Shown here in pieces: positions 55,053 to 59,484 of a stretch of DNA of 64,000 nt; within the stretch, counting starts at the first letter, position 1; each line of letters begins with the position of its first letter. The notes below the pieces were generated by a model that worked only from the letters and a program-made list of their open reading frames with translations, was not told the origin of the DNA and made no database searches. Location: NCBI RefSeq assembly GCF_001650405.1, contig NZ_LWCU01000009.1:1-64000 (forward strand), read 5' to 3'. The stretch comes from Microbacterium sp. H83 (GTDB taxonomy: Bacteria > Actinomycetota > Actinomycetes > Actinomycetales > Microbacteriaceae). The translations under genes were made by a program, and so were the position numbers.

Positions 55053-56489
55053 TCAGCGGGAGACGAGACCCTGATCGAGGATGCGCGCCACCACGCGGTC
55101 GGCGGCGTGCCCGTCGTCCCGCGGGTTGAACTGCGCGCGCCACGCCGCGTAGCGCTCCGCGTAGGCCTCCTCCGCGGTGCCGTCGGCGAGCGCGGCGACC
55201 AGCTCGTCCTGCGTCGTGACCAGCGGACCGGGCGCCCGCGATGCGAGGTCGAAGTAGAACCCGCGGAGCTCACCGCGGTAATGGGCGAGGTCGGGGACGA
55301 GGAAGAACATGGGCTTGCCGGTGACGCTGAAGTCGAACATCACCGACGAGTAGTCGGTGATCAGCGCGTCCGCCGCCAGGAGCAGCTGCGCGGTCTCGGG
55401 GTATCCGGTGACGTCGACGACCCTCGCCCCGGCGCGATCGCGCCCTGCGTCGAGGGTCCGCGAGTGCCCTCGGACCAGGACGACGGAATCGGTCTGCCTC
55501 GCGAGCTTCTCGGCGTCGACGAAGTCGACCATCTCCGTGCGGTCGTCGCGCCAGGTCGGGGCGTAGAGCAGCACGCGCTCGCCCTCCTCGATCCCGAGGG
55601 ACGCGCGGATCGCCGTGCGGTCCCCCGTGACCAGCGCGTCGTTGCGCGGATATCCCTCGACCCAGATCGGCCGGCCGAAGAACGCGTACGCCTTGCGGAG
55701 GATGCGCTCGGAGTACGTGTTCTGCGCCAGCAGCACATCCCATCTCCGCGACTCCTTGATGACCGCCGCCATGCGTCGAGGGTCGAATCCCGGCCGATGC
55801 AGAGCGAGCCGTTTGAGCGGGGTGCCGTGCCAGGTCTGGATCACCCGCTGACCGGGCTTGCGCGCGAAGCGCCGTCGCAGCCAGTCGTTCACGACGAGCA
55901 GTCGAGCGGATGCTCGGGCGCGCCACCATTCCGGGCTGCCCTCGACGACGGCGACGGCACCCTCCGGCACCGCGACGGACAGATCGACCACGCTCCAGTA
56001 CCGCACCACGTCCGGCGCCTGGGCAGCGAGCGCGCGGTCGATCGCCCGCGGATTGCAGCCCACGCTGCGGCCGTAGAAGCTCTCGAAGAAGACCGCGTTC
56101 TCGGTGCCGCCGGCGGAGGCGACGTAGCGGCCCTCGAGCGTCGCCTGTCCCTCGACCGTCTCGTACACGGGGTCGATCGGAGCGGCGATCCGCGCGGTGG
56201 CGCCGTCGAGCTCGACCCGCACCCCCGAGAGGACATGCGGGGCGACGTGGAGGTCGTCCAGATCCACGTCGGCGATGCGGACGTCGTACTGTCCGGTCGG
56301 AAGGGGCAGCTCTGCGCCGCCCCACCTCGAGGCCCGCAGCGGGAAGGTCGCCTTCCACGTCTTGCCGCCTCCCGTGATGCGCGCGCTCACCCGTGCCCGG
56401 GGACCGATCAGCTCCGCCGCCGAGGGTCGCACCCCGGCCCCTGCGATGACCAGCGTCTCTGCCGTCTCATCGATCCGGGCGGTCGTCAT
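55053..56489 (-). CDS. CDP-glycerol glycerophosphotransferase-like enzyme (second of three)
   Basis: A 478-residue enzyme with a beta-rich N-terminal extension of about 130 residues followed by the TagF-type catalytic region: Q-T-W-H-G-T-P-L-K-R, L-Y-A-P-T-W-R-D-D, L-V-R-G-H-S and I-T-D-Y-S-S-V-M-F-D. The H-G-T-P-L-K and D-Y-S-S motifs are the hallmark of the family. It is coupled to the next enzyme upstream (ATGA at 56486-56489). Wall-polymer synthesis is likely. The exact donor is unknown. Confidence 0.88.
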   Translation of the reverse strand: MTTARIDETAETLVIAGAGVRPSAAELIGPRARVSARITGGGKTWKATFPLRASRWGGAELPLPTGQYDVRIADVDLDDLHVAPHVLSGVRVELDGATARIAAPIDPVYETVEGQATLEGRYVASAGGTENAVFFESFYGRSVGCNPRAIDRALAAQAPDVVRYWSVVDLSVAVPEGAVAVVEGSPEWWRARASARLLVVNDWLRRRFARKPGQRVIQTWHGTPLKRLALHRPGFDPRRMAAVIKESRRWDVLLAQNTYSERILRKAYAFFGRPIWVEGYPRNDALVTGDRTAIRASLGIEEGERVLLYAPTWRDDRTEMVDFVDAEKLARQTDSVVLVRGHSRTLDAGRDRAGARVVDVTGYPETAQLLLAADALITDYSSVMFDFSVTGKPMFFLVPDLAHYRGELRGFYFDLASRAPGPLVTTQDELVAALADGTAEEAYAERYAAWRAQFNPRDDGHAADRVVARILDQGLVSR

Positions 56490-57739
56490 GCTGCTCCCTT
56501 CGGCGCGGGAATCCCCCGCGCACGGATTGTCTCGTACACCCGTCGGGTGTTGCGCCCGTCGCGAAACGCATGCATCTCCGCGCTGAGCGTAGCGGAACGC
56601 CGAGATGCGGCCTCGAACTCGCCGTCGTCCGCGAGCAGCGCGTCGAGCGCCGACACGACATCGTCCCAGTCCGTCGCGACATCGGCTCCGGCGACGTCCT
56701 CGTAACGGCCATAGAAGCCCCGCACCCTGGCGTACTCCTCCGCATCGGGTGCGAAGTACACCACCGGCATCGCCAACAGGCCCACGTCGTAGGCGAGCGA
56801 GGAGTAGTCGGTGATGAGCACGTCGATCGCAGGCAGCACGGGCGTCACATCCGGGACGACGGCCGCGCCCAGCATCCGGATCCTCCTGCTCGGCACCGGG
56901 GGGTGATAGTCCCCTTCGCCGAGGGGGTGGGAGCGGATCAGGAGCACCGCATTGTGACGGTCGAGCAGCCCGATGATCGACAGCCAGTGCGCTGCCGACG
57001 GGATCGCGGGATCCGCCGCGCCGTCACGCCAGGTGGGCGCGTAGAGGATCGTCCGCGCACCGGAGAGCGGCTCCTCGCCCGCGCGGTGCAGCACCGCGGC
57101 CGCGTGCGCCCGCCGATCCTCGGGCGTGCCCCGGGACAGGACGTCGACGCGCGGCTCACCGGTGACGACCACGCGGTCGTCACCCAGCGCGAACGCCGAC
57201 TCGAGCCGTCCTCGCGAGCGATGCGAGGCGGCCGGGAGCACGCGGATGCGTCGAGCCGCCGCGCGGTACAGGATTCCGACGAGACGGCTCAGCAGCGCAG
57301 CACCGGGGACATCCGGCACTTGGGTGGTGGCGGGCGAGTCGAGCCCGATGCGCTTGAGCGGGATCCCGTGCCAGAGCTGCACGACGAAGGCTCCGGAGAT
57401 GCCGTAGCGGTTGGCGTCCCCGAGCCCGTGGGTCACGACCACGACCCCGGCGCGCGCGGTCGCCCACCAGCCGCGGAGGCCGGTCTTGCGGACGGACCGG
57501 ATGCCCAGCGCTGCCGCATCGCGATCCTCGCGATCGGATGCCGTCAGCCAGAGCGTCTCGTGACCGCGCTCGTCGGCGAGCGTGCGGAGCGCCAATGCGC
57601 CGTCGCCCACGCCCGCCCCGCAGCCGAAGACCCAGCGGGTGCCGCGCGGGATCAGCAGCGTGCCGATGCGCCCGGCGAGGTAGAGCGGGATCCGCAGCAG
57701 CTTGGCCGCATTGCCGGATCCGAAGGAGAAGGACGCCAC
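56486..57739 (-). CDS. CDP-glycerol glycerophosphotransferase-like enzyme (third of three)
   Basis: A 417-residue TagF-family enzyme with Q-L-W-H-G-I-P-L-K-R, L-Y-A-P-T-W-R-D-G, L-I-R-S-H-P and I-T-D-Y-S-S-L-A-Y-D. It lacks the long N-terminal extension of its partner. GTG 57739 lies 6 nt after TAGGCT. Both that box and the start codon sit inside a perfect 16-bp hairpin. It is the first gene of a two-gene unit. Confidence 0.88.
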   Translation of the reverse strand: MASFSFGSGNAAKLLRIPLYLAGRIGTLLIPRGTRWVFGCGAGVGDGALALRTLADERGHETLWLTASDREDRDAAALGIRSVRKTGLRGWWATARAGVVVVTHGLGDANRYGISGAFVVQLWHGIPLKRIGLDSPATTQVPDVPGAALLSRLVGILYRAAARRIRVLPAASHRSRGRLESAFALGDDRVVVTGEPRVDVLSRGTPEDRRAHAAAVLHRAGEEPLSGARTILYAPTWRDGAADPAIPSAAHWLSIIGLLDRHNAVLLIRSHPLGEGDYHPPVPSRRIRMLGAAVVPDVTPVLPAIDVLITDYSSLAYDVGLLAMPVVYFAPDAEEYARVRGFYGRYEDVAGADVATDWDDVVSALDALLADDGEFEAASRRSATLSAEMHAFRDGRNTRRVYETIRARGIPAPKGAA

Positions 57740-57767
57740 CCCGCGAGCCTATCGCGGGGTGGCGTCC
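57731..57767 (-). promoter_or_regulatory. Hairpin combining terminator-like stem, -10 box and start codon
   Basis: GGACGCCACCCCGCGA (57731-57746) pairs perfectly with 57752-57767 around GCCTA. On the minus strand TAGGCT (57751-57746) is mostly the loop, and GTG 57739 lies in the 3' arm. It lies 31 nt downstream of the htrA-like stop, so it may stop htrA transcription or hide this start in readthrough RNA. Confidence 0.6.
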
Positions 57768-57797
57768 TTCTTCGGGAGCCGAGGAGACGGTCGGCGA

Positions 57798-59399
57798 TCA
57801 GCCGGCGAGGTCGCCGAGCGTCACATCGATCTCGTACTCCTTGCCGCCACGGATGTAGGTGACCTTCGCATCGCTGCCGCCGGCCGCGGCGCGGACCTGC
57901 GCCGTGAGGTCGCTCGCGCTGGTGATCGGCGCGCCGTTGAAGGCGGTCACGACGTCATCCGCTCGGAGGCCGGCCGCCGCCGCCGCGCCGCCGTCGGTCA
58001 CATCCGCGATATAGGCGCCGGCCACCGAGGCGCCCTCGACGCTCGCCGCGTCCTGCACCGATGCGCCGAGCAGCCCGTGGCTCGCCGCACCGTCGGCGAT
58101 GATCTCCTCCGCCACGCGCTGGGCGATGTTCGACGGGATCGCGAAGCCGATGCCGATCGATCCGGAGTCCTCGGAACTGCCCGAGCTCGCGATCGCCACA
58201 TTGATGCCGATCAGCTGGCCCTTGCTGTCCACCAGCGCGCCACCGGAGTTGCCCTGGTTGATGGCCGCATCCGTCTGGATGACCGCGATGGAGATCGACT
58301 CCGAGGCCTGCTGGTTGGTGTTGCCCGGCAGGTCGAACTGGAACGGACCCCGGCTGTCGCCCTCCTGCGGACTCTGCTGCTCCTGCGGCGCATCCTCCGA
58401 CGACGAGTCCGGCAGGGCCGACGACGCGATCTGGATGCTGCGGTTCAGCGCGCTGACGACGCCCGTGGTGACCGAGTTCGACAGTCCGAGAGGCGCTCCG
58501 AGTGCCACGGCGGTGTCTCCGACGTTGAGGTCGGAGGAGTCGGCGAACTCGATCGGCGTGAGGTCCTCGGCGCCGGTGAGCTTGATGACGGCGAGGTCGT
58601 AGATCGGGTCGGTGCCGACGACCGTCGCCTCGAAGATACGGCCGTCGGAGGTCGTGACGCGGATCGTGGGGTCCGCCACCGCACCGCCGAGCGTGACCAC
58701 GTGGGTGTTGGTGAGGACGTAGCCGTCGTCGCTGATGACGACGCCGGAGCCGCTGCCGGCCTCGCTCGAACCGGCGACCTCGATCGTGACGACGGAGGGC
58801 AGCACCTCGGTCGCCACTGCCGTCGTCTCGTTCACCGAGCCGGGATTGTTCACCGTCACGGTGTTCGGCCCCTGTGCGACGCCGGAGGAGTTCTCGTTCG
58901 AGATGCCGTCGAGGATCGCTCCCCCGCCGAACCCGGCGACGCCGCCCACGAGGGCTGCGGCCACCACGATGGCGGCGAACTTCACACCTCCGCGCGTCTT
59001 CTGCGGCTTCGTCGCGGTGCTCGACTCGAACGGCTGCGCGGGCTGCCCGGCCGTGTGGATGCCGAAGGCCGCGCCGGATGCCGTCGCGGTCGCGCCGGGG
59101 TGAGCGGGGGCTCCGGGATGAGCGGCGGCTCCGGGGTGCGCGGGGGTGCCGTAGGCGGCCGTCTGCGACGCGGGAGCGGCGAACGGGTTCGACGGGGCGA
59201 CCGGCGCGGCGGGCGGGGTCGAGGTGAACATCGACGGGACCTCGTGCCCCTGACCGGGGCGCGACGCCGCGGCGTCGACGCCGGTGGGCTCAGCGGCGGC
59301 ATGCGGCGTCGAACGGTCGACGCTCTCTGCTGCCTCGGTGGACGGCACGGCGTCGTGCGACGCGGGTGCCGAGTGGTCCTGGGTGTTGTCTTCGTTCAT
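57798..59399 (-). CDS. HtrA-like trypsin-type serine protease with PDZ domain
   Basis: A 533-residue membrane-anchored protease. The first 140 or so residues are low-complexity (Pro/Ala/Thr with three A-H-P-G-A units), then one membrane segment (about 148-170), a protease domain with the triad H233 (T-N-T-H-V-V), D268 (Y-D-L-A-V-I-K) and S385 (G-N-S-G-G-A), and a C-terminal PDZ domain (about 430-533). It probably handles misfolded envelope proteins. ATG 59399 has GAAGGAG 7 nt upstream. Confidence 0.92.
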   Translation of the reverse strand: MNEDNTQDHSAPASHDAVPSTEAAESVDRSTPHAAAEPTGVDAAASRPGQGHEVPSMFTSTPPAAPVAPSNPFAAPASQTAAYGTPAHPGAAAHPGAPAHPGATATASGAAFGIHTAGQPAQPFESSTATKPQKTRGGVKFAAIVVAAALVGGVAGFGGGAILDGISNENSSGVAQGPNTVTVNNPGSVNETTAVATEVLPSVVTIEVAGSSEAGSGSGVVISDDGYVLTNTHVVTLGGAVADPTIRVTTSDGRIFEATVVGTDPIYDLAVIKLTGAEDLTPIEFADSSDLNVGDTAVALGAPLGLSNSVTTGVVSALNRSIQIASSALPDSSSEDAPQEQQSPQEGDSRGPFQFDLPGNTNQQASESISIAVIQTDAAINQGNSGGALVDSKGQLIGINVAIASSGSSEDSGSIGIGFAIPSNIAQRVAEEIIADGAASHGLLGASVQDAASVEGASVAGAYIADVTDGGAAAAAGLRADDVVTAFNGAPITSASDLTAQVRAAAGGSDAKVTYIRGGKEYEIDVTLGDLAG

Positions 59400-59484
59400 G
59401 GTGTGCTCCTTCAACAACGCCCCTTCAGAGTGACGCCTGTATCTGTGCGTTTCGTATGGCGAAGATGAGTTTCACCTATGGCCT

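Follow-up and report, generated by a model that had tools for sequence, protein, structure and literature searches.

Can the hairpin that stands behind one gene also hold the promoter and the start codon of the next, and if so, for which of these roles has it been kept? This question is raised by a junction in Microbacterium sp. H83 (GCF_001650405.1, NZ_LWCU01000009.1), of which we analysed positions 1-64,000 (the window, 64,000 nucleotides in all). Here an htrA-like gene, read from the minus strand, is followed by a gene for a TagF-like CDP-glycerol glycerophosphotransferase, and an original prediction made from the sequence alone had proposed that one hairpin between them combines a terminator-like stem, a -10 box in its loop and a start codon in its arm, which could keep the expression of the two genes apart. 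We consider it probable, at roughly 70%, that the junction is a composite element which closes the htrA transcript and on which a leaderless promoter and start are superimposed. Sequence comparison establishes the structure, its covariation, the geometry of the -10 box and start, and the stand-alone hairpins which are found where the stem is absent.

Structure of the junction

The two arms (Table 1) form a perfect stem closed by the loop UAGGC, and the minimum-energy fold adds four extra pairs beyond the 20 bp, past a 3-nt bulge. The hairpin that had been predicted at 57731-57767 exists and corresponds to the inner 16 bp of this stem with its loop, the full stem being four pairs longer. RNA folding of positions 57690-57800 (minus strand) gave -69.3 kcal/mol, with a z of -6.95, and none of 200 shuffles was as stable. 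The stop codon of the htrA-like gene, at 57798-57800, lies 26 nt from the 20-bp stem and 30 nt from the inner 16-bp stem; the position of this stop, the TAGGCT motif and its 6-nt spacing to the GTG at 57739 had all been given correctly. An in-frame TAG at 57751-57749, 12 nt 5' of the GTG, makes this GTG the first possible start codon of the TagF-like gene, with none further upstream. The two TagF-like (PF04464) genes overlap and likely belong to the same operon.

Table 1 Features at and around the htrA/TagF-like junction, in window coordinates.
Feature	Position	Strand	Remarks
htrA-like gene	57798..59417	-	Trypsin-like protease and PDZ domains; Pfam PF13365, PF13180
Hairpin 5' arm, non-coding	57752..57771	-	20-bp perfect stem; 57771-57752 pairs with 57746-57727
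-10 box TAGGCT	57746..57751	-	Five of six bases in the loop; TANNNT here in 186/187 junctions
Hairpin 3' arm	57727..57746	-	Covers the final -10 base, the 6-nt spacer, the GTG and the opening codons of the TagF-like gene
Predicted transcription start	57739	-	First base of GTG, giving a leaderless mRNA; TANNNT-N6-RTG marks long ORFs in the sampled genome
T-rich coding stretch after the GC-rich inner stem	57723..57730	-	Possible imperfect U-tract
TagF-like CDP-glycerol glycerophosphotransferase gene	56486..57739	-	GTG start; PF04464, E 6.5e-48
Second PF04464 gene	55053..56489	-	4-nt overlap with the end of the first TagF-like gene

Junctions used for comparison

The TagF-like protein was matched in 175 of the 198 genomes of the genus, and junctions were taken from the 150 of these with listed places, leaving out 25. 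We added named loci, the top 80 of 348; 75 of them carried the name Microbacterium and five only that of a higher group. After the removal of 43 of these 80 as duplicates, judged on the sequence from -100 to +100, 187 distinct junctions remained, and in every one of them htrA lies directly upstream of the TagF-like gene on the same strand. Five further loci from the genus (L234-L237 and L239) stand outside both sets, four of them repeating genomes already used; in L239 the hairpin was seen by eye. For other genera we used 24 loci (L238 and L240-L262), which are the best matches among 132 matching genomes. In three of these (L242, L244 and L254) htrA was seen about 2.4-2.6 kb from the start of the TagF-like gene, downstream and on the opposite strand.

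Conservation and covariation of the stem

We found a stem over the start codon (score at least 12, register up to 37 nt) in 174 of the 187 junctions, compared with 11 of 187 when the same criterion was used in a background search 200-260 nt upstream. The register was up to 16 nt in 160 of the stems and 17-37 nt in the other 14, which are less certain. One junction, L226, has its start outside the usual spacing and was classed as stem-less by hand. None of the 24 loci from other genera had a start-covering stem, the test being looser in four of them because the start codon probably used in these stands 9 or 12 nt 5' of the one aligned.

The register was fitted for each genome so as to maximise pairing, and 110 junctions were selected as sharing the register of the window. 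In these selected junctions the 5'-arm columns from -27 to -13 were 91-100% conserved, compared with 31-49% for the columns from -70 to -39. Their 36 distinct strings contained 542 paired cells (shuffle mean 513, maximum 522), and 22 changes had occurred on both sides of a pair, where the maximum in 500 shuffles was 10. When all 187 junctions were forced into the register of the window (101 distinct strings), between 45 and 94 of the 101 were paired, depending on the position. The base facing the start codon, taken over the 174 stems, was T in 19 of 21 junctions with ATG and in 1 of 153 with GTG, so that the covariation extends into the start codon itself, GTG going with C and ATG with T. Compensatory changes in relatives had been proposed as a check on the hairpin, and both the two-sided changes and the matching of the start codon are changes of this kind.

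Independent pairs of junctions were compared on a tree built from htrA and TagF fragments. Pooled over ten varying positions, the two sides of the stem differed in the same way in 24.9 comparisons, in the opposite way in 1.1 and showed no difference in 17.0. The start-codon position alone gave four independent pairs on starred branches, 3.3 in the same direction and 0 in the opposite one, which are too few for significance. Pairing was kept in 11 of 19 variants at position -2 and in none of 8 at position -1. On these comparisons the hairpin exists and its structure has been conserved.

The -10 box and the start of the TagF-like gene

The sequence exactly 6 nt 5' of the start is TANNNT in all but one of the 187 junctions: TAGGCT in 171, TAGAGT in 5, TAAGCT in 4, TACGCT in 3 and TAGTCT, TAGCAT and TAGGAT in 1 each. 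The start codon is GTG in 165 junctions and ATG in 22. Across the box variants T1, A2 and T6 are invariant and no other position is, a pattern which fits a -10 box and fits neither a stop codon nor a Shine-Dalgarno sequence. Conservation of the loop's TAG as an in-frame stop was rejected as an explanation, since the three TACGCT junctions lack the stop and yet retain T1, A2 and T6. The idea that the AGG of TAGGCT serves as a weak Shine-Dalgarno sequence was also rejected, as AGG is lost in TAGAGT, TACGCT, TAAGCT and TAGCAT. A consensus scan found no sigma-70 promoter with a -35 box at the junction.

The three bases before the box (CGNTANNNT) begin with CG in 161 of the 187 junctions. In the available part of a study of Mycobacterium tuberculosis (PMC3898074), promoters are described as having TANNNT without a conserved -35 motif, many of them with a CG extension before the box.

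We also looked at how often this arrangement occurs in the genome of Microbacterium sp. H83, where the enrichment was first found in 464 kb and then extended to 1.13 Mb (32% of the genome). In the 1.13 Mb there were 183 sites with TANNNT-N6-RTG, 154 of them followed by an ORF of at least 80 codons, and 104 sites with a spacer of 7 nt, 71 of them with such an ORF. The control spacers of 2-5 and 8-11 nt gave 32-46 sites each, with 11 to 21 having an ORF of at least 80 codons. The enrichment of TANNNT-N6-RTG at gene starts suggests that the TagF-like promoter is leaderless-type by the standards of this genome, and the conserved geometry bears out the -10 box and leaderless-type start that had been proposed. 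Transcription therefore probably starts at the GTG. As a strong indicator of where genes begin in the sampled genome, TANNNT-N6-RTG could serve in the correction of start-codon annotation.

The sole exception to the 6-nt spacing was L226 (Microbacterium sp. BR1), in which TAGGCT is kept and the start lies about 14 nt further on, after the purine-rich GGAAAGGGG. This may represent a switch from leaderless to leadered initiation.

Junctions without the start-covering stem

The 13 stem-less junctions correspond to seven changes on the tree. A separate hairpin of -30 kcal/mol or lower, placed after the htrA stop and ahead of the -10 box, was present in all 13 compared with 3 of the 174 others, although it should be noted that this cut-off was chosen after the values had been seen and that the 64-nt folds used may merge neighbouring elements. 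With the -30 cut-off, each of the 7 independent pairs associated the absence of the stem with the separate hairpin (median p 0.016 by the sign test). With a cut-off of -20 kcal/mol the separate hairpin was found in 10 of the 174 others, and the association held in 5.8 of the 7 pairs (median p 0.031). The median distance from the htrA stop to the start of the TagF-like gene was 127 nt in the stem-less junctions and 50 nt in the others, so that the former have more room for hairpins.

In 8 of the 13 (L065, L066, L067, L209 and L211-L214) the arms of the separate hairpin resemble those of the start hairpin by eye; in L209 the inner 16-nt arms are the same as those of the window, around a loop without the -10 box. 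The separate hairpins of L069, L080, L096 and L226 are of unrelated sequence and lie away from the promoter. Despite the missing arm, TANNNT at 6 nt was kept in 12 of the 13. These lineages are a natural experiment, which helps to tell termination from translational hiding of the start codon.

Tandem hairpin units were seen upstream of the TagF-like start in two junctions, three units in L097 and two in L084, the upstream copies being without a start codon. Duplication of this kind is a possible route to a separate hairpin.

The hairpin as a putative terminator

The GC-rich 20-bp stem, 26 nt past the htrA stop, has the form of the hairpin of a canonical L-shaped intrinsic terminator. In all 187 junctions 5 to 7 of the 8 bases at +9 to +16 are T (5 of 8 in the window), a T-rich tail which is also dictated by the conserved Phe-Ser-Phe codons. 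The consensus scan found no terminator with a T-rich tail at the junction, and no U-tract was seen by eye at the separate hairpins of L069, L080 and L226. The stem had been called terminator-like; a GC-rich hairpin does follow the htrA stop, but with no terminator in the consensus scan this description is weaker than claimed. The junction hairpin does fall within the definition of an I-shaped terminator, that is, a strong hairpin not more than 50 nt from the stop with an optional U-tract, and it may act as one.

The available portions of a review and a research paper (PMC12288462 and PMC5335608, taken jointly) report I-shaped hairpins poor in U to be common among mycobacteria. The same sources cite work in which a U-tract is required by the polymerase of M. 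bovis or of mycobacteria, so the matter is disputed. In Corynebacterium glutamicum, according to the accessible text of PMC3890552, 320 predicted terminators had a clear transcript end and 72.2% of these ended within the first stem.

A hairpin is kept behind htrA in all of the stem-less lineages, which indicates that what has been preserved is termination or 3'-end formation. We infer that the hairpin terminates the htrA transcript, pausing and 3'-end processing being other possible activities, and the junction offers a clean system for asking if termination in Actinobacteria can occur at hairpins with a poor U-tract.

An Rfam search of positions 57400-58000 gave nine matches up to E 1, mostly to microRNA precursors and all below their gathering scores. 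We rejected these, since any perfect hairpin would yield such matches.

Accessibility of the start codon and alternative explanations

According to the original prediction, RNA reading through from htrA would fold over the start codon of the TagF-like gene and a leaderless RNA would be free. Modelling agrees with this: in the window the predicted cost of opening the start codon was 12.9 kcal/mol in the read-through RNA compared with 1.3 kcal/mol in RNA beginning at the GTG, and the 60-nt leaderless RNA folded with a z of only -1.10. Across the 174 stem-bearing junctions the predicted cost in read-through RNA had a median of 12.8 kcal/mol and was at least 8 kcal/mol in 166, the leaderless median being 1.3. 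These values would suit a switch selected for sequestration, by which htrA read-through RNA could not be translated into TagF and leaderless RNA could; the T4 genes e, soc and I-TevI follow the same logic in the available parts of PMC2988022 and PMC3014915. We nevertheless consider it unlikely that sequestration is the selected function. In the 13 stem-less junctions, where another hairpin stands upstream, the predicted cost in read-through RNA had a median of 3.3 kcal/mol and was below 8 in 11 (leaderless, 5.0). This counter-evidence is not clean, as the start codon was paired with a probability of at least 0.8 in 7 of the 13, and costs of at least 8 kcal/mol persisted in L213 and in L212, where some 10 bp of the stem remain. 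There is also no evident Shine-Dalgarno sequence ahead of the GTG, so translation of read-through RNA would probably be weak even without the stem. Strong locking is thus lost in 11 of 13 stem-less junctions and a hairpin behind htrA is present in 13 of 13, which leaves closure of the htrA transcript as the common denominator. Of the proposal that the start codon is hidden in order to separate the expression of the two genes, the predicted locking stands for the stem-bearing junctions, but the 11 unlocked junctions argue against it as the selected function. Hiding of the start would be at most a secondary benefit in the 13 stem-less lineages; where the stem is present, in the other 174, it may be a further function, as far as the modelled energies go.

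Two further explanations do not involve the hairpin as RNA. The inverted repeat could be a protein-binding operator over the tagF promoter, such as a site for a repressor dimer, with RNA pairing being incidental, and the conservation of the repeat and its centring on the -10 box would agree with this. However, the arms are anywhere from 4 to 37 nt apart across the 174 junctions with the stem, they change in matched pairs at several positions and the unrelated hairpins of the four stem-less junctions named above lie away from the promoter, all of which make an operator very improbable. We attach as little weight to the complementarity being a frozen ancestral accident, in which the 5' arm is kept only for the promoter and the 3' arm only for the codons it carries. 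Both arms are indeed nearly invariant in many relatives, and the promoter and the N-terminal codons are separately constrained; but the matched two-sided changes exceed those in all 500 shuffles, changes go in the same direction in independent comparisons, and 12 of the 13 stem-less junctions hold TANNNT at 6 nt without the arm. The selected role which is best supported is therefore the closing of the htrA transcript, with the leaderless promoter and start superimposed.

Proposed mechanism and comparison with known systems

Under this best-supported role, transcription of htrA would meet, about 26 nt past the stop codon, a GC-rich hairpin of very high stability, at which the htrA RNA would be ended or trimmed. 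The hairpin might be an intrinsic terminator, either I-shaped or with an imperfect U-tract, or a hairpin protecting the 3' end. The same DNA would be the promoter of the next operon, where RNA polymerase would read CGA-TAGGCT with the loop as its -10 box, and transcription of the TagF-like operon would start at the G of the GTG within the 3' arm. An mRNA beginning there would be leaderless and would lack the 5' arm, so the hairpin could not form and translation would be possible. Read-through RNA from htrA would contain both arms and its start codon would be paired; such RNA is probably poorly translated.

A bolder form of this mechanism, which we put forward tentatively and regard as appreciably less probable than the composite element itself, is that about 45 bp have been selected at once as a terminator, as the promoter of the next gene and as its start codon, with read-through RNA both ended and untranslatable and the leaderless RNA escaping both fates. 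If true, the junction would be a chromosomal, leaderless counterpart of the control of T4 lysozyme, genus-wide and missing only where a separate upstream hairpin stands. In either form, one and the same sequence can serve as the hairpin that follows one gene, as a promoter and as a start codon, and can persist in this way across a genus, which is possible because a leaderless gene needs no 5' untranslated region.

For the T4 genes e, soc, 49 and I-TevI, the available sections of PMC3014915 and PMC2988022 describe a hairpin that hides the start region in a long RNA initiated upstream, and a promoter lying in or next to the 5' portion of the hairpin which gives an RNA without the 5' arm that is translated. 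As in e and I-TevI, the Microbacterium start codon lies in a hairpin which, by prediction, only the longer transcript can form. Unlike the T4 cases, this is a cellular cell-wall gene with a leaderless-type start and no phage late promoter, and its hairpin lies directly after the upstream gene, with a separate upstream hairpin where it is absent. In the fold-back inhibition of IS10/Tn10, a read-through transposase mRNA hides its start and the element's own transcript does not; in contrast to the present case, IS10/Tn10 is a mobile element with a leadered mRNA.

The junction resembles the mycobacterial I-shaped terminators, as these appear in the accessible text of PMC12288462 and PMC5335608, in its strong, GC-rich stem, which is less than 50 nt from the stop, and in its possible imperfect U-tract. 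It differs from such stand-alone terminators in that its loop is the -10 box and its 3' arm is coding. With actinobacterial leaderless genes, as described in the available parts of PMC3898074 and PMC3890552, it shares TANNNT, the lack of a -35 motif, a frequent CGN ahead of the box and a GTG or ATG start. In the open-access literature we found no leaderless start or promoter in a conserved hairpin closing the preceding gene, which is a weak negative.

Occurrence elsewhere and origin

In the fetched stretches of the 24 loci from other genera (up to about 1.5 kb), no htrA match was found upstream of the TagF-like gene. TANNNT was found 5-7 nt before an in-frame start in 11 of the 24. It is likely that the leaderless promoter came first and that the hairpin was added once the gene stood behind htrA.

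Within the genome of Microbacterium sp. H83, 864 kb including the window contained 95 stems of at least 13 uninterrupted pairs (G-T allowed, on plus-strand letters). Counted in this way the junction stem has 22 pairs, second to one stem of 23, and none of the other 94 combines TANNNT at the loop with a 3' arm that includes a start codon, as this one does. We also scored stems at the 286 sites with TANNNT-N6/7-RTG in the 1.13 Mb sampled (32% of the genome). The junction scored 20 and the next sites 15, 14 and 13.5, the runner-up having an ORF of 17 codons; a reversed-sequence control of a first, smaller scan gave 62 sites, the highest of them scoring 13. No other case of a promoter within a terminator was found among the remaining 94 hairpins (864 kb) or the remaining 285 leaderless-type sites (1.13 Mb).

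A terminator with GGACGCC arms that is repeated in the genome was considered and rejected, there being 10 sites (each counted on both strands) compared with 5 in a backwards control. By eye, long hairpins at the GGACGCC-arm sites were confined to this junction and one site on contig 37.
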